Made by a program: the position numbers and the translations under genes
Part shown: positions 771 through 35,272 of the stretch, in pieces
How the letters are laid out: each line of letters starts with the position of its first letter
Numbering within the stretch: the first letter of the stretch is position 1
The notes under the pieces: model-generated
The model's database searches: none
The model's input: the letters and a program-made list of their open reading frames with translations, nothing else
Told to the model about the DNA's origin: nothing
DNA from: a virus
DNA: 37,569 bases
IMG/VR virus record: IMGVR_UViG_3300043358_000015
Span: 1-37,569 of that record
Reading direction: 5' to 3' (one strand)

Positions 771-2170
771 AAATCTTCGGCCTGCCCGTTCCGTTCACCG
801 GCGAGAAGCGCAAATCGGCGGCGTCGGTGCCGATGTCGGTGCCATATGACCGCAACGGCTGGTATCCGCTGATCCGCGAACCGTTCGCCGGAGCATGGCA
901 GCGCAACATGGAAGTCAGTGCCGATACCGTGGCGTCGTTTCATGCCGACTTCGCCTGTAAGACCCTGATCAGCAGAGACATCGCCAAATTGCGGCTCAAG
1001 CTGGTCGAGAAGGACAAGGACGACATCTGGTCGGAAGTGACCAACCCGGCGTTTTCTCCGGTGCTGCGGCGGCCAAACGACTACCAGACTCACAATCAAT
1101 TCTGGGAAAGCTGGGTGCTGTCAAAGCTCTCCCGCGGCAACACCTATGTGCTCAAGGAGCGGGACAACCGCAACGTCGTTACCGCATTGCATGTGCTCGA
1201 CCCGACCCGCACCCAACCTTTAGTGGCCGAAGACGGCGCGGTGTTCTATCGCCTGGACTCCGACAATCTTGCCGGCATCGACGGCATCACCGTGCCCGCG
1301 CGCGAAATCATCCACGATCGATTCAACTGTTTGTTTCATCCTTTGGTCGGCACGCCGCCGGTGTTTGCGAGTGGCTTGGCTTCGATGCTCGGACTGAACG
1401 CGCAACGCGCCTCGGCGCTGTTGTTTGAAAACTCCTCGATGCCCGGCGGCATTCTCACCGCGCCCGGCGAGGTGTCGGACGTCGAGGAAAAGCGCATCAA
1501 GGAGGAATGGGAAGCACGCTTTTCACGCGTCAACCTCGGTCGCGTGGCGGTGCTCAGCGGCGGCCTGCAATATCAAAAACTGCCAATGACCAACGTCGAA
1601 GTGCAGATGATCGAAAACCTGAAATGGTCGGCCGAGGTGGTGTGCAGTGTCTATCACGTGCCGCCCTACAAAGTCGGCGTCGGCGCCTTGCCATCCTACA
1701 ACAACGTGCAGTCGCTCAACGTCGAATACTATTCGCAGGCGCTGCAAAGCCACATCGAGGAAATCGAGGAGCTGCTCGACCACGCGCTCGGCATCGGCTG
1801 GGGCGTCGGGCTCGGCACCGAGTTCGATACCGAGAACCTGTTGCGGATGGACAGCGTCACCCAGATCACCGCGATCCAGGCTGCGGTTGGTGCCGGCGTG
1901 ATGGCGCCGAACGAAGGCCGCAGCAAGCTCGATTTGAAGCCGGTCCCAGGCGGGGACAACCCGTACTTGCAACAACAGAACTACTCGCTTGAGGCTCTGG
2001 CCAAGCGCGATGCGCAGGCCGATCCATTCAAGCCGAACACGCCACCGGCGCCGCAACCGGCACAACCGGCCGATCAAACTGGACAACCCGTCGATGAAAC
2101 CGTTGCGGCGCCGAAGTTCATCGATCCAGATTGGGTCGTTAACCGCCTGTTCGTGGCGAGAGCGGCGTGA
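767..2170 (+). CDS. Phage portal protein (HK97 family)
   Basis: This 467-residue protein would form the dodecameric ring at the capsid vertex through which DNA enters and leaves and to which the tail attaches. Family features seen include an N-terminal region with a [20 protein letters not shown]-type segment and a [18 protein letters not shown] stretch, typical of HK97-like portals in front of the long stem helices ([12 protein letters not shown]). The tail is rich in Pro, Gln and Ala ([10 protein letters not shown]). Length and start fit the family. It overlaps both neighbours by four bases. Unlike HK97, no protease or capsid gene follows. Confidence 0.9.
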
Positions 2171-3321
2171 GCATCAATGTCGTGCTCGGTCCACCGGTTG
2201 CCGGCAAATCAGAGTATGTCAAAGTGCACGCCAAGGACGGCAACGTCATTGTCGATTATGACCTTATCGCCAAGGCAATGGGATCACGGGTTGCGCATGG
2301 TTCGACTGGCTCGGTTCGCATTGTCGCATTGGAATCGCGCAAGACCGCCATTGAACGAATCCTCCGCGGTCTCGACGATGCCGCCTGGATCATTCACACC
2401 AACCCGCAGCCCGAAGTAATGCAGGCGTATGTCGATGCGGGCGCAAAGTTCACGATGCTGGATCCCGGCAAGAACGAAGTTCTCCGACGGGCAAGGGCCG
2501 GTGAACGTCCGGCATCAACGATCGATGCGATTGAAGCATGGTACGCAAATCCGCCGGTCGTTCCTGAGAAATCAACTGGACAGAAGGCAATAAACCGCAC
2601 TGTTCGTGAGGGCCGCGTGATGGACAATCTGCAAGCCGCATTTGATCGTGGCTTCGAAGCGGTGAAAACTTATATTGACAGTGAACTTGCCGCATTGGCT
2701 GCATCGATCGCCGCAATCGAAGCAAAGGGATACGACAATGCCATTCCACAAAAAGCCGAACCCGGTCCGCGTGGCGAGCCCGGCGAAACTGGGCCGCAAG
2801 GCGAAAGAGGCGCTGAAGGGGTCCAGGGGCAGCAAGGTGAAAGAGGCGATCAAGGCGAGCTCGGTCCGCAAGGCGAGCCGGGCGACCGCGGCCGGGAAGG
2901 CACGGGCATAGCCGGCGCTGCCATCACCCGCGAAGGCGAATTGATGCTCACCCTGACCGATGGCGCGGTGCTGATGCCGGGCCGGGTCGACGGCCGCGAC
3001 GGATTGTCGATCGATGATCTGTCGATCGAATATGACGGCGAACGCACCATGACGCTGGTGTTCTCGCGTGGTGACAAGCGCAAGGAAATCCCGGTCATAT
3101 TTCCGGCGATGATCTATCGCGGCGTGTTCGAGTCCGGCAGGGACTATGCGCGAGGCGATACCGTGACGCTGAATGGATCGCTCTATCACTGCAATGTTGC
3201 GGCGACAGTGGCGCGGCCTGGTGACGGCTCGGCCGACTGGACGCTATCGGTCAAGCATGGTCGCGACGGCCGCAGTGGACGCGATGGCGACAAGGGTGAG
3301 CGCACCGTGAGGATCGCCTGA
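2167..3321 (+). CDS. P-loop NTPase fused to collagen-like and carbohydrate-binding-like region
   Basis: The 384-residue product appears to combine two unrelated parts. Residues 1-135 form a P-loop kinase-like domain with Walker A GPPVAGKS at 8-15, a DYD at 30-32 and a conserved end [10 protein letters not shown], as in small phage NTPases found near packaging genes. From residue 152 there is a coiled-coil segment, about 16 Gly-X-Y collagen triplets (roughly 198-245), a beta-rich domain and a carbohydrate-binding-like motif ([15 protein letters not shown] then LYHC). A second in-frame ATG at 2620 has a GAGG site eight bases upstream, so the fibrous half may also be made alone. It occupies the place where protease and capsid genes normally sit. 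Role unknown; possibly a head decoration fibre. Confidence 0.7.
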
Positions 3322-17098: not shown

Positions 17099-18847
17099 AT
17101 GAACGAGCAGTCCCCCATCTTGCGGGCACTCGGCGGCAAGGGTCGCGAAGGCGAGGTCGCCGTATGGGATGACGGCCGAACGATCTCCGGCAGTGAGGAT
17201 CTGCGCGTTGATGGAAGCGGCCGCTTGCAGGTCAAAAACCGTGCGGTAGTGACCGAGGCTCCGCAGGACGGCAAATTGTATGGCCGGCGTAACGCCAACT
17301 GGGCGGAAGTCCGCACGGTGGCGGGTGGTGGCGGTGGTGGTAGTGACGGTGACGGCGGCAACGGCGAGCCTGGACCGCCAGGGCCCCCGGGTCCGGAAGG
17401 CCCACAGGGGCCACAGGGGCCCGCTGGCGCGGATTCCACGGTGCCGGGGCCACAAGGGCCCGCTGGCGCTACCGGCGTCCCGGGACCGCCAGGAGCCACA
17501 GGACCGACCGGTGCAGACTCGACCGTGCCGGGACCGCAGGGTTCGAAGGGGGACACTGGCGCGCAGGGCATACCCGGAACCACAGGTTCGCAAGGACCGC
17601 AGGGGCCCGCGGGCGTGGCTGGTTCGCCGGGACCACAGGGACCGAAAGGCGACCCACAAACGCCGAGCGATGCCAACCCGCTGATCGACGGCACTGTGGC
17701 GCCGGGAACGTCGCTGCTGTATTCGCGCGGTGATCACGTTCATCCGACCGACACGACGCGCGCGGCGCTGACCCAGGTGGTTCGATACGATGCCGCGCAG
17801 GCGCTGACCGCGATGCAAAAGGCGCAGGCCCGCGCCAACATCGATGTATTGAAGAAGAACTACATCATCAATGGCGCGATGCAGATCAGTCAGGAACAGG
17901 GAAATACCCTGCTATCTCTAGGATCGTATTTCCCCGCGGATCAGTTTTTCGGCTCTACTAGTGGCTGGGCTTCCGGTTGGCCAACTGCGCAATGGGTATC
18001 CGGTGTTACGCCGGGAGGCTCGCTAAACCGTATTCGGATTGCAGTGCCTACTGCTCACGCCAGTGTGGCAGCATCCGAATGCCTCAAGATAACTCAAACG
18101 CTGGAAGGTTTGCGCGTTGCGGATTTGCGCTTTGGCTCGACAGCAGCAAAGACAGTGACGCTTCAGTTCGGCTGTAGAGGGCCGACAGGCACTTATTGCG
18201 TGTCGTTGGTCAATTACGCGAGCACTAGGTCTTACGTTGCTGAGTATGTAATAGCGCAGGCGAATACAGATACTACCGTGTCTGTTACCTTCCCCGGTGA
18301 TGGCCCGGGCGGAACGTGGGTTACGGATAATAACGGAAGCATCGTCGTCAACTGGGTTTTGTCGGCTGGTACAAATTTACAACAAGCGGCGGGTTCGTGG
18401 GGCGCAGGTGCTATGGCGTCGCCCAACCAATCGAATTTTACTGTGTCCACCAGCAACGTGTTTGAACTGTTCGATGTTGGACTGTATGAGGGTAATGTTG
18501 CTCCACCGTTCATGGTGCCGGATTACGCTACCGAGTTGGCGGGGTGTCAGCGCTATCTGCGCCGAATAAGGTTCGGCACCGGCATAGCTTATTCCACGAC
18601 GCAGGTACGGCTGTTTATCCCTCACGTCGGTTTGCGGGCGGTGCCGACCGCCACCATCGCCGCGCCGTTGCAAATAACCGATGCCTACAGCGCTAACTTC
18701 ACCCAAAGCGCAATAAGCATCGTTACCAATACGATATCACCGGATAGCGGCCAGTATGATTGTGGCAATTTCGCCGGGCTTACGCTTGGACGATTTTATG
18801 CAATTCTGAACACTTCGCCCGACGTCATCATGAATGCGAGGCTGTGA
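17099..18847 (+). CDS. Collagen-like tail fibre protein
   Basis: The 582-residue fibre has a short N-terminal domain, a Gly/Ser linker ([12 protein letters not shown]), then roughly 30 Gly-X-Y triplets at about residues 92-190 with internal repeats ending [10 protein letters not shown]. After this come a conserved [10 protein letters not shown] collar segment and an Asn-rich C-terminal beta domain ([15 protein letters not shown]) like those of phage receptor-binding tips. The collagen stretch would form a trimeric rod. GC-rich, proline-dense codon use in the repeat is expected. It is probably the main receptor-binding fibre. Confidence 0.75.
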
Positions 18848-28336: not shown

Positions 28337-28852
28337 TCACAGCCCCAATCGTTCATCGCGGCGCTTCGGCGGCTGATAGGCCATCCGGGTGTGGTGCGGG
28401 CAATACGGCCAGCCATCGGCCGCGGCGGCGCCGCAGAACAGCGTGGCGACTTCGTCGATATTGCCGAGCGGCCAGTGGCAGCGGGTATGGTCTAGCTCGA
28501 CGATCGTGCAGGGCTGCGTGTTGCGATGCCCGGGCGCGTTGTCCCAGGCGGGATAGTTCTTCGGCTTGAAGGATGGGGCAGGCTCCGGGATCTGCATTGT
28601 CTTGACCTTCTCAAGTCGCGGCGACGTCGTCCGGCTCGCACTTGCGATGCCGCGTGTGTTGACCTTGGGCAAGGTGCCCGTACCCTTCTTCTCGAGGCCG
28701 TGCTTTCGCTGCATGCGGTGAACGATCCCGATGACCATGTTGCGGTTGCACTTTTCCACGAACTGAAGACAGAACTTCGCGACGATGGCGCTGGCTGAAT
28801 GCGTCGGCCACAAGCCGCGGACGAAGCGCTGCTTTTCGTCGGTCCATTTCAC
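28337..28852 (-). CDS. gcrA: GcrA-family cell-cycle transcription regulator (phage-borne)
   Basis: The 171-residue product has both ends of the GcrA family. The N-terminal HTH region reads MKWTDEKQRFVRGLW / SASAIVAKF / NRNMVIGIVHRM. The C-terminal zinc-ribbon-like sigma-binding part has TRCHWPLG, FCG and YCPHH. GcrA in Alphaproteobacteria acts with sigma-70 and responds to adenine methylation at GANTC sites to tune cell-cycle genes. A phage copy may redirect host transcription or time the early genes. It is full length and probably functional. It lies in the leftward operon that also carries the integrase. Confidence 0.85.
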   Translation of the reverse strand: MKWTDEKQRFVRGLWPTHSASAIVAKFCLQFVEKCNRNMVIGIVHRMQRKHGLEKKGTGTLPKVNTRGIASASRTTSPRLEKVKTMQIPEPAPSFKPKNYPAWDNAPGHRNTQPCTIVELDHTRCHWPLGNIDEVATLFCGAAAADGWPYCPHHTRMAYQPPKRRDERLGL

Positions 28853-30417: not shown

Positions 30418-31059
30418 ATGCTTGATAAAACGAAGCGTTCGGACGAGCCGACCATCCTTACGATTAGCCCGCCGAATTTTCAGAGTGCCAAGGTGAAGAT
30501 CATCGGGCTTGCGCCGTTGGTCATGAACAAAATGAGCAGCGAGAACCGTCGCAAGATGATGGATGCCCAGATGAAGGGATCGCAGACCAAGAAGGGCACG
30601 AAGCGTGATCCGAAAGACTTTGACGCTGTTTATAAGGGTGCGATGCACATCGCTGAAAAAGGTTGGCACGGCTTCCCTGCTTCCGCGCTTCGCACCGCAA
30701 TGGTCGACGCGTGCCGCCTGGTTGGTTTCAAAATGACAATTGCGAAGTTGTCAGTTTTCATTGAGGCGGATGGCTTTGACGCCGATGACGGTCAGCCTTT
30801 GGTGAAGCTGATTGGCAAGCCAGTCAGAAAAGATATGGCGGTTAAACTTGCAAACGGATCGACCGACATTCTGTCACGCCCGTTCTTCTTTCCCTGGGAG
30901 GCTGAACCGACTCTGCGATGGGATGCTGATCAGTTTTCCGCTGCGGATGTGATCAACCTCCTCGCCCGCGTTGGCGGTCAGGTTGGCATTGGAGCTGGCC
31001 GGCCGAACTCGAAAAACAGCACTGGCATGGGCTGGGGAATTTTCTCGGTTCAAAGTTAA
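30418..31059 (+). CDS. Phage early protein, RAMP-like family suggested
   Basis: The 213-residue product follows a GGGAAATAG-type site. It has VKIIGLAPLVMNKMS, a central FPASALRTAMVDACRLV segment and a C-terminal GQVGIGAGRPNSKNSTGMGWGIFSV. The latter is a glycine-rich loop similar to phage proteins with a GIGRFRP-type ending, and it recalls the RAMP-like folds of Cas7-type RNA-binding proteins. That resemblance is by eye only. It is commonly placed beside recombination genes. Function unknown. Confidence 0.5.
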   Translation: MLDKTKRSDEPTILTISPPNFQSAKVKIIGLAPLVMNKMSSENRRKMMDAQMKGSQTKKGTKRDPKDFDAVYKGAMHIAEKGWHGFPASALRTAMVDACRLVGFKMTIAKLSVFIEADGFDADDGQPLVKLIGKPVRKDMAVKLANGSTDILSRPFFFPWEAEPTLRWDADQFSAADVINLLARVGGQVGIGAGRPNSKNSTGMGWGIFSVQS

Positions 31060-31137
31060 ACGTAGCGAAGCTTAGCCCAGTGCAGCGGAGCCAAGCGCAG
31101 CGGAGCACAGCAAAGCTGAGCAAAGCAGGCACAGCGT
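31060..31137 (+). repeat. Array of degenerate 5-bp AGCNN repeats (short, about 13 units)
   Basis: From 31064 to 31124 every fifth base begins AGC, or AGT at 31079, for 13 consecutive pentamers. After AGCAGG (31124-31129) the phase slips to +9 for the next AGC at 31133. The array fills the space between two early genes and leads straight into the ribosome site of the gene starting at 31155. It has the same pattern as the long array after that gene. Confidence 0.8.
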
Positions 31138-31154
31138 ACGGAAAGGTTGGAATC

Positions 31155-31613
31155 GTGACAATCAAGGATGAACTTGTCGAACTACAGCGACAGGCTAATG
31201 GCTTGTTGCAAGTCGAGACTGCCGTTGAATGGGCCGAGAGTCATCCTGACTCGGCGCTTCATAAATCCCTTGATTGGGACGATGAAACGGCCGGTCACGA
31301 ATGGCGGTGCCATCAGATCCGCAGGTTGATCGCGGTCCACATCGTCAATGGGGATAGGGCAAGAGAAACGGTGTCGTTGACGATCGATAGGAACCGCGAG
31401 GGCGGCGGCTACCGCCTGATCAGCGACGTGATCTCAACCCCGGACATGCGGCGCGTTCTCTTGCAAGACGCGCTCGATGAACTCGAGCGGGTCAAACGGA
31501 AATACGAATCGTTGACCGAGTTGGCCAAGGTTTGGGAGGAAGCCCATCGCGTGCGGCAGAAGCACGCGGCGCGTAAAAAGAAGGAGGAAAAGCAGCCGCA
31601 CAGCGCGGCGTGA
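31155..31613 (+). CDS. Small early phage protein between two repeat arrays
   Basis: The 152-residue product starts at a GTG after an AAGGTTGGAATC site. It has VEWAESHPDSALHKSLDWDD and AGHEWRCHQIRRLIAVHIV, a pattern found in a family of small phage early proteins, then DTMRR-like DMRRVLLQDALDELERVKRKYES. The C-terminus is Lys-rich. The longer upstream frame runs through the repeat array and was rejected. It lies exactly between the two AGCNN arrays, so binding or processing of those repeats is a possibility, but no DNA-binding motif is evident. Confidence 0.6.
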   Translation: MTIKDELVELQRQANGLLQVETAVEWAESHPDSALHKSLDWDDETAGHEWRCHQIRRLIAVHIVNGDRARETVSLTIDRNREGGGYRLISDVISTPDMRRVLLQDALDELERVKRKYESLTELAKVWEEAHRVRQKHAARKKKEEKQPHSAA

Positions 31614-32090
31614 CGAAGCAAAGCAGGCCAAGTTTAGCGGATCATAGCCCAGCATAGTGAAGCACCGCGAAGCCGAGTGAAGCATAGCGAAGCGAAGCAG
31701 GCTTAGCTTAGCGCAGCGTAGCAGAGTATAGCGCGGTCCAGTGAAGCATAGCAAAGCAGGCCAAGCACAGCGGAGCCCAGCCAAGCCTAGCCTGGCGAAG
31801 CGAAGCCTAGCGAAGCGAAGCAGAGCAGAGCAGAGCAGGCGAAGCATAGCGTAGCACAGGAAAGCATAGCGGAGCTCAGCAGAGCCGAGCACACCACAGC
31901 AAAGCAGGTGAAGCACAGCGGAGCCCAGCCAAGCATAGCTTGGCCCAGCCTAGTTTAGCGCAGCAAAGCAGGCGTAGCATAGCTTAGCCTCGCAAAGCCG
32001 AGCGAAGCCCAGCGTGCACAGCGAAGCAGGCCAAGCCAAGCCCAATGGAGCGGAGTTTAGCATAGCCGAGCGTAGCAAAGCAGGCAGAGG
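31614..32090 (+). repeat. Long array of degenerate 5-bp AGCNN repeats (about 95 units)
   Basis: Almost every fifth base starts AGC (sometimes AGT) from 31617 to about 32079. AGCAGG occurs at 31622, 31696, 31755, 31834, 31903, 31967, 32025 and 32079. The distances between these are 74, 59, 79, 69, 64, 58 and 54, nearly all equal to 4 modulo 5. So each AGCAGG marks a one-base phase slip and the array divides into blocks of 11 to 16 pentamers. No ORF here is credible. The array fills the whole gap between the early gene and the next hairpins. Confidence 0.85.
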
Positions 32091-32240
32091 TAAATGTGAA
32101 TTCCGCGCGCCAGCGGTCCCCAAACTAACAGCGCGCGGATAGGGCATCGCTAAGGAGCGAGCCTGAAGCCACCGGGGCGGCATGTTCCACAAAGCCCCAT
32201 CCGCTCCGGTGGCTGACCTGAACAACAAGAGGAAACCTGA
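32091..32240. other. Non-coding segment with two tandem hairpins
   Basis: Hairpin 1 has arms CCGCGCGC (32103-32110) and GCGCGCGG (32131-32138). Hairpin 2 has arms AGCCACCGGGGCGG (32167-32180) and CCGCTCCGGTGGCT (32201-32214) with one mismatch. Each has a 20-base loop. There are no T-runs after them, so they do not look like simple terminators. They may act in RNA or DNA together with the AGCNN array that ends just before. Confidence 0.5.
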
Positions 32241-32588
32241 ATGGACGATCACGCCAAGGAACTATCCGCGTTGGCCGGCACCGCAAAACGAACGAAGTCG
32301 GCGGCGCCACATTCGGCGCCGATGCCGATCTACGACTTTGAGCATCTCGGCGAGACGCTGTCCGACAGTCTGGTGCAGACCGCCGAGGATCTGTCGGCTG
32401 AAGCGCAGCGCATTGCCAGCGAGCTGATAGCTGATGCGCAGCGTCTTGCCAACGACGCCAGGACACTGGCCGCCGACATCCGGATGCAGGTGGCCGAGCA
32501 GAGCAGGCTGCTCGCCGACATCAATGGCAGGCTCAGGGCGTCCGGCGAGCAGATGCTGGAAGCGCACAGGAAGTTCAACGGGTCGTAA
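32241..32588 (+). CDS. Coiled-coil early protein of unknown function
   Basis: The 115-residue product starts with basic and proline-rich residues, then has a long helix from about residue 38 (LSDSLVQTAEDLSAEAQRIA, AEQSRLLADINGRLRASG) with regular Ala/Leu spacing. An AGAGGAAACC site precedes the ATG. It lies directly before the recombination genes. It may be an adaptor or a membrane-free scaffold for them. No family was recognised. Confidence 0.5.
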   Translation: MDDHAKELSALAGTAKRTKSAAPHSAPMPIYDFEHLGETLSDSLVQTAEDLSAEAQRIASELIADAQRLANDARTLAADIRMQVAEQSRLLADINGRLRASGEQMLEAHRKFNGS

Positions 32589-34441: not shown

Positions 34442-35272
34442 ATGACGATAACACCGAAAAACTGGGACACGTTTCAGCATTACAAAAATCGCAAGCCGGC
34501 ATGGATAAAACTTCACCACGGGCTGCTTGATGATTTCACCTTCAGCCGCTTGCCGGTTGCTAGCAAGGCGCTAGCGCCTTTGCTTTGGCTGCTAGCAAGC
34601 GAATATCAGGATGGCAAAATTACCGCTCAAATGGACGAATTGGCGTTTCGCCTCCATGTTATGCCGGCGGATTTGACGTCAGCTCTAACTCCTTTGATTG
34701 ACAGCGGTTTTTTCAATGCTAGCGAGCCGCTAGCAGACTGCTATCAAGATGCTAGCCCAGAGAAGAGAAGAGAAGAGAGAGAGAAAGAGAAAGAGATAGA
34801 GAAGAGCAGAGTAAGAGATATGTCCAAATTATCCAAAAGGGATCAAGCAAGCCACGTACGCGCGCGAGAAGGCGCGCTTTTGCCTTCCGATGATTGGCCT
34901 TCGGATTATGAAAATAGGTTCTGGAAATTCTGGCCCAACAAGGTTGGAAAACCAGCGACCCTGAAAGCTCTCGCTGCCGCACGCAAGCGCCGCTGTTCCT
35001 TCGTCGCGATCATGACCGGAATTGCGGACTACATCCGCGACAAGCCGCCTGACCGGCCCTGGCTCAACCCTGCAACGTTCCTCAATCAAAACCGATGGGA
35101 AGACAAGCCGGCAACCGTGAGCGCAGAAAATGGAAAATCCAGACGAAGCGGCAGCCTCATCGACGCCCTCGACCGGGAGCTCGAGAAAATCGAGCGCGAG
35201 GAAGAAGCTGCTGATACGATGCCAGAGGATGCTGTTCTCAGCCTACCGAGCCGATCAGTATTCCGATCCTGA
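34442..35272 (+). CDS. Phage replication initiator-like protein (lambda O analogue)
   Basis: The 276-residue product begins MTITPKNWDTFQHYKNRKPAW. It has an N-terminal winged-helix-like region (FTFSRLPVASKALAPLLWLLASE, ITAQMDELAFRLH), a highly charged linker (EKRREEREKEKEIEKSRV) encoded by a purine-only tract, and a C-terminal region (YENRFWKFWPNKVGKPATLKAL, DRPWLNPATFLNQNRWED) common to phage replication proteins. Six GCTAGC sites in the gene and the purine tract imply that its own gene holds the origin, as lambda O does. ATG at 34442 is preferred to the GTG at 34421. Confidence 0.75.
   Translation: MTITPKNWDTFQHYKNRKPAWIKLHHGLLDDFTFSRLPVASKALAPLLWLLASEYQDGKITAQMDELAFRLHVMPADLTSALTPLIDSGFFNASEPLADCYQDASPEKRREEREKEKEIEKSRVRDMSKLSKRDQASHVRAREGALLPSDDWPSDYENRFWKFWPNKVGKPATLKALAAARKRRCSFVAIMTGIADYIRDKPPDRPWLNPATFLNQNRWEDKPATVSAENGKSRRSGSLIDALDRELEKIEREEEAADTMPEDAVLSLPSRSVFRS
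34559..34845 (+). other. Putative replication origin inside the initiator gene
   Basis: GCTAGC occurs at 34559, 34570, 34591, 34718, 34729 and 34751. The first three and last three are spaced 11/21 and 11/22 bases, near multiples of the helical turn, and make two matching triads. The second is part of a perfect 16-bp palindrome AAGGCGCTAGCGCCTT (34565-34580). A purine-only run (34759-34796) and A/T-richer sequence (34815-34845) follow. The arrangement resembles lambda ori within gene O. Confidence 0.65.

Follow-up and report, generated by a model that had tools for sequence, protein, structure and literature searches.

A phage-borne locus with a Vipr homolog beside AGC-type pentamer arrays, a likely VIPR system

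Two pentamer tracts and their surroundings

The window, by which we mean the whole stretch of DNA analysed here, is a 37,569-bp virus record that carries integrase, portal and recE/recT-like genes, the last of these lying 0.5-1.4 kb downstream of two repeat arrays. NN-AGC pentamers run along the + strand in two tracts, 31062-31126 (tract A) and 31614-32091 (tract B), which are separated by one gene of 152 aa. The features of the locus are listed below, with the candidate guide RNAs and the two genes named after the parts of the VIPR systems to which we compare them.

30418..31059, + strand: vipr, predicted to encode a 213-aa RAMP (Cas7-like) protein, phrog_4652; directly before tract A
31062..31126, + strand: candidate vrRNA 1 (tract A), 13 NN-AGC units, closed by AGCAGGC (31124-31130)
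31155..31613, + strand: vap-like gene, 152 aa, GTG start, phrog_15946; between tracts A and B
31614..31628, + strand: start of tract B, two leading units and the first AGC-A-GGC boundary
31629..31698, + strand: candidate vrRNA 2, 14 units
31703..31757, + strand: candidate vrRNA 3, 11 units
31762..31836, + strand: candidate vrRNA 4, 15 units
31841..31905, + strand: candidate vrRNA 5, 13 units
31910..31969, + strand: candidate vrRNA 6, 12 units
31974..32027, + strand: candidate vrRNA 7, 11 units, one of them of 4 nt
32032..32081, + strand: candidate vrRNA 8, 10 units, closed by AGCAGGC (32079-32085)
32102..32139, + strand: GC-rich hairpin after the last unit, a weak predicted fold (9-bp stem, z -1.31)

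Base identity at a lag of 5 is 0.57-0.58 in both tracts, against ~0.2 at neighbouring lags. Pairs of AGC spaced by 5 bp number 10 in tract A (mean 0.9 and maximum 5 in 1000 dinucleotide shuffles) and 48 in tract B (mean 5.5, maximum 12), far above the shuffles, which bears out the original prediction of a strict 5-bp AGC phasing in two tracts. Our scan of both strands revealed no comparable 5-bp AGC periodicity elsewhere in the 37.6-kb window. The hexamer AGCAGG starts at 31124, 31622, 31696, 31755, 31834, 31903, 31967, 32025 and 32079, and the spacings that had been given for it in tract B (74, 59, 79, 69, 64, 58 and 54) are exact. All of them are of the form 5n-1 except 58, which departs because its block has one further 4-nt unit. 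The phase slip consists of a single-A unit between triplets, AGC-A-GGC in place of AGC-NN-AGC, so the one-base slip first noticed at AGCAGG stands; the block size of 11 to 16 units that went with it is corrected to 10-15, with tract A made up of 13 units and tract B of two units followed by blocks of 14, 11, 15, 13, 12, 11 and 10.

Each + frame of tract B has 9 stops and therefore no + frame explains the tract, which rules out a coding explanation of the array, as had been claimed. A single stop leaves one - frame nearly open, which follows from GCTNN allowing only one stop position per 15 nt. A search of Rfam identified no known RNA family for the array, giving only a sub-threshold match to a plant virus, and no self-structure was predicted for the array RNA (z 0.16), as expected of a guide. 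Between the units we found no hairpins and only AGC-A-GGC boundaries; the one hairpin follows the array and is a possible 3' end of an array transcript. Candidate vrRNAs 4 (31764-31786) and 6 (31912-31934) have 23 identical bases in common (AGCACAGCGGAGCCCAGCCAAGC) and then diverge, possibly through recombination between guides or as two variants of one target.

Neither CRISPR repeats nor cas genes were recognised near the array. Six neighbouring proteins gave no cas match (PADLOC, NCBIfam), and the repeat has only 5 nt with a 3-nt core, which does not fit CRISPR-Cas.

Elsewhere in the window, the - strand encodes at 28337-28852 a cell-cycle regulator similar to GcrA (Pfam GcrA, E=1.5e-21), a hint that the host is alphaproteobacterial; a search with the portal protein gave no host assignment at the threshold used. 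Two proteins with collagen-like GXX repeats are encoded at 2167-3321 and 17099-18847, and an AG-rich polypurine tandem tract lies at 34759-34820 within the replication gene region. A heptad-like protein of 115 aa (32241-32588) has a weak match to the ZorA coiled coil (PADLOC, E=3.6e-4) which is probably coiled-coil similarity only.

The vipr and vap-like genes

The 213-aa protein had no match in Pfam, NCBIfam or PADLOC, and its PHROG match was to phrog_4652, a family of no known function. Our search of the PDB with profile A1, built from 47 relatives from viral contigs with SUSP1 left out, returned the entry 36pp, 'SUSP1 Vipr protein', at E=1.6e-41, whereas the next best match had E=0.1 and a Csm5 RAMP 0.72. 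The protein in 36pp is the product of the SUSP1 gene that adjoins SUSP1's own GGY arrays, and a 66-sequence profile, also without SUSP1, matched the SUSP1 Vipr gene at 5.8e-12. For the AlphaFold (AF2) model of the window protein (pLDDT 89.9) the top fold matches are all Csm3/Cas7 chains (Foldseek E to 2e-5, VIA Z to 11.8), and two helices of the model, 41-53 and 68-74, are inserted after strand 28-30 as a possible thumb. The protein has a C-terminal glycine-rich loop (VGIGAGRPNSKNSTGMGWGIF), seen as a conserved GxGxGRP...GxG near the C-terminus; residues R154, W160, G186, R195 and G207 do not vary among 47 sequences. By profile search and by predicted fold, the 213-aa protein is shown to be a Vipr/RAMP homolog. 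Further Vipr relatives (loci L195-L209) lie in genomes or MAGs assigned to the Planctomycetota, Verrucomicrobiota, Bacteroidota, Lentisphaerota, Acidobacteriota and Pseudomonadota, and a span of six phyla suggests wide horizontal spread of Vipr.

VIPR was first described in 2026 in a preprint (PMC13142463). It recognises DNA by means of RNA guides that use a noncontiguous code, and has been proposed as a forerunner of CRISPR. Its parts are a small phage-encoded RAMP protein, Vipr (~20 kDa), an accessory vap, and vrRNAs, which consist of 9-16 pentamers made up of a constant GGY triplet and a hypervariable NN pair, the consensus being worded there as 'GGY/NN, or a related consensus' (PMC13142463). 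Also part of the published picture are an RRM/RAMP fold, a glycine-rich loop and an RNA-binding thumb domain in Vipr, an invariant structured 3' tail on each vrRNA, and vrRNAs that are expressed and co-purify with Vipr. The NN pairs are described as matching target DNA with one skipped base (the wobble base), a reading of NN against DNA shown for the SUSP1 Vipr system, and the binding as repressing competing phages (PMC13142463).

In the loci that we examined, window included, the phrog_15946 family of the vap-like protein gave 66 matches; relatives occur in 63 of the loci, nearly always beside vipr (about 60 loci), and the vap-like protein is a conserved partner of Vipr. Its AF2 model has a small N-terminal domain followed by one long C-terminal helix, for which a fold search found no significant match among solved (PDB) structures. 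A protein search of viral contigs with the vap-like sequence alone gave no match, and homology to SUSP1 Vap1 was undetectable, with only a 9-residue GxGYR match at E=0.1. Our guess, by analogy with types II, VI and VII, is that the protein may act as a DNA-binding helper.

Association with vipr, constraint and competing explanations

A scan of viral contigs for nothing but the pattern (AGCNN)x7 gave at least 119 stretches. Among the matches listed, a Vipr homolog lies beside degenerate AGCNN arrays in 37 of 51 loci and at 1 of 68 simple-repeat loci; several of the 14 degenerate-array loci without Vipr lie near the end of the sequence stretch examined. A protein search alone identified 55 Vipr relatives in viral contigs, most of which adjoin GGC/GGT-NN pentamer arrays, and in 149 cases out of 156 the array shares its strand with vipr. 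These data show that arrays and Vipr homologs occur together, reciprocally and on the same strand. The proximity of recE/recT is not needed for this because many arrays adjoin vipr in unrelated contexts, such as the Cheoctovirus mycobacteriophages and the tail-gene region of a Rhodoplanes plasmid.

We also asked where the arrays vary. In the clade sharing the vap gene, RGY-A-GGY is read at 111 of the 114 slips detected, a count that includes near-copies and does not represent 114 independent events. The slips are thus conserved and therefore mark guide boundaries, and we infer that A-GGY is a boundary or processing signal. Differences between near-identical guides, counted within close groups, fall in NN in 26/26 distinct cases in Cheoctovirus, with none in GGC, and in 27/30 in the L024 group; in the L167 group motif letters and NN differ about equally often (11/20 and 9/20). 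Part of the NN bias is built in, because guide calling requires the motif (R and Y transitions allowed). Whole guides are gained or lost at boundaries between the close phages Saal, Donkeykong and Quico. The NN letters are thus shown to vary while repeat frame and A-GGY boundaries stay conserved, which is the outcome in relatives, phase and slip points kept while bases drift, that the original prediction had named as a sign of selection.

We put at roughly 93% the probability that the window contains a phage-borne VIPR locus of vipr, a vap-like gene and eight candidate vrRNAs with a guide function. One vrRNA lies between vipr and the vap-like gene and seven follow head to tail downstream. By analogy with the published system, the array would be transcribed from the + strand, and cuts at or near AGC-A-GGC would release RNAs with 10-15 NN-AGC units each. 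Vipr subunits would coat each vrRNA via the AGC triplets, and the NN pairs would be matched to double-stranded DNA in the pattern NN-x-NN-x, skipping one base, usually the codon wobble. Binding would silence genes of competing phages, satellites or prophages, assisted by the vap protein. Of the roles first proposed for the tracts, a transcribed repetitive RNA would be the right one, as a VIPR vrRNA array whose transcription we take from the published system.

Some features of the NN pairs are consistent with such a code. In 268 guides from 73 loci they resemble codon positions 1-2 of phage genes, a frame that fits better than the other five in all 500 of 500 bootstraps over loci. This signal is driven by AGY guides, GGY guides being split between sense and antisense, and for the window guides alone two codon frames are nearly tied; we regard the result as suggestive because base composition could contribute. 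A comparison of the guides from all loci with 1.4 Mb of loci, at skips of 0-3, yielded no target and no skip that stood out, and vrRNAs 3, 6, 7 and 8 were compared with these loci only. In IMG/VR, exact 10-unit patterns of vrRNAs 4 and 5 had no match, and 8-unit patterns of vrRNAs 2 and 5 had 11 matches with flanks at chance level only. No target of vrRNAs 1, 2 and 4 was found in 385 alphaproteobacterial genomes at up to 3 mismatches (<=3), and a Cheoctovirus guide had two chance-level matches in IMG/VR and none in 16 actinophage genomes. The likely aim of Vipr guides in environmental phages is at phages outside the searched collections.

The same NN pairs bear on a TRAP-like reading, in which the RNA would be wound on a ring or filament protein and would regulate without guiding, as in attenuation, with NN as mere spacers. 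TRAP sites also look like a regular 5-nt RNA repeat, and Vipr has an RNA-binding fold. Mere spacers, however, need neither defined blocks nor a likeness to codon positions 1-2, and the SUSP1 homolog is reported to read NN against DNA (PMC13142463); we consider the TRAP-like reading very improbable. Slightly less credible still is a double-stranded DNA element, whether Chi-like, nuclease-pausing, protein-loading (RecT, RecE or host AddAB) or a binding array of the partition type. The neighbouring recE/recT-like genes would suit such an element, as would a period of 5 bp, half a helical turn, but the arrays follow vipr on its own strand among neighbours that are otherwise quite different, and their variable letters change freely, turning over in whole blocks between close phages, unlike a binding site. 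The Chi-like or AddAB zone and the protein-loading site of the original prediction are for this reason set aside. An equally slight chance falls to a neutral, microsatellite-like pentamer expansion decayed by point mutation, with the slips as chance deletions: simple repeats of pure AGCNN do occur in other viral contigs (among the matches listed, a degenerate array is absent from 68 of 119 loci), but neutral decay should strike all five positions and not fall so largely in NN as it does in Cheoctovirus and the L024 group, the slips share one conserved sequence, and the arrays track a protein family.

Core triplet, boundaries and known systems

Within the probable VIPR locus of the window, the core is AGC or AGT at 64 of 67 inner positions; the guides do not follow a strict GGY core, whereas 8 of 9 A-boundaries have GGY. 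Across the AGY arrays (window, L102, L098, L033 and L090) the second triplet is GGY at 41/43 A-junctions and GGY is found in only 6/309 inner units. In a tree that we built from 90 Vipr proteins, the window clusters with L102 (100/99), likewise AGY, and the two nest in a mostly GGY group (87/91, 28 rows; a fork that is not strongly supported), so a change of core triplet from GGY to AGY is probable. These comparisons of sequences suggest that the window lineage probably replaced GGY by AGY inside guides and kept GGY at the boundaries. AGY cores are present in distant Vipr lineages of the tree too. More tentatively, and at somewhat less than even odds, we propose that the RNA address code was rewritten in one VIPR clade, with AGY now read in place of the GGY of close relatives and A-GGY a distinct boundary or processing signal. 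If this were true, an AGC-coded VIPR would be orthogonal to GGY systems and the A-GGY junction would have a defined role in cutting staggered arrays. Both the AGY core and the A-GGY junctions may already be covered by PMC13142463, which also reports 'staggered arrays with overlapping vrRNAs'.

Guide ends of other kinds were observed as well. In L024, L048, L055 and L091, which have AGC arrays, each guide ends in a hairpin-like AAAGGCTACAAAGTAGC, and guides of L019, L036 and L084 end in AAAGTTAYATCC; both ends look like distinct vrRNA tails.

The locus would add to VIPR a member with an altered core triplet and a conserved boundary element, and the unnamed PHROG families phrog_4652 and phrog_15946 gain a likely function. 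Its clade includes the Cheoctovirus mycobacteriophages, which are easy to grow, and two questions become testable, namely what decides the RNA motif that Vipr selects and by what means tandem arrays without tails are cut into guides. In the well-studied Cheoctovirus phages Saal, Donkeykong, Quico and others (L193, L228-L240) we found a VIPR locus in which the vipr homolog is annotated 'hypothetical protein', and their array is overlaid by small annotated genes (e.g. SEA_LASTJEDI_43).

Published VIPR (PMC13142463) is found mainly in phages and proviruses with arrays in intergenic gaps around vipr. The window agrees with this in its phage setting, in the intergenic position of its arrays beside vipr and vap, and in its 10-15 units per guide (9-16 in the paper). 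With the type II VIPR of Escherichia phage SUSP1 (PDB 36pp) it shares a homologous Vipr RAMP with a C-terminal G-loop, a vap beside vipr, and phage-encoded pentamer arrays that flank a gene and combine a fixed triplet with hypervariable NN. However, the core is AGC/AGT in the window and GGY in SUSP1, the window vap-like protein is not detectably related to Vap1, and seven guides of the window join head to tail at AGC-A-GGC where each SUSP1 vrRNA has a structured 3' tail. Further likenesses, within the clade of the window, are found in the Rhodoplanes serenus plasmid NZ_LR026982 (L192), which has vipr-vap-array synteny, a related vap and one-base-slip GGCAGGC boundaries, and in the Cheoctovirus mycobacteriophages, e.g. 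Saal (L193), with vipr, a related vap and one-base-slip GGCA-GGC boundaries. Cyanophage Cy-LDV1 (L194) belongs to the same clade and has vipr, a related vap and a GGC core. Unlike the window, the arrays of L192, L194 and Cheoctovirus are GGC throughout, and in Cheoctovirus the array is located upstream of vipr, with a hairpin-like sequence of its own at the end. Finally, the predicted Vipr fold resembles the RAMP effectors of class 1 CRISPR (Csm3/Cas7), from which the window differs in that its guide would be noncontiguous.
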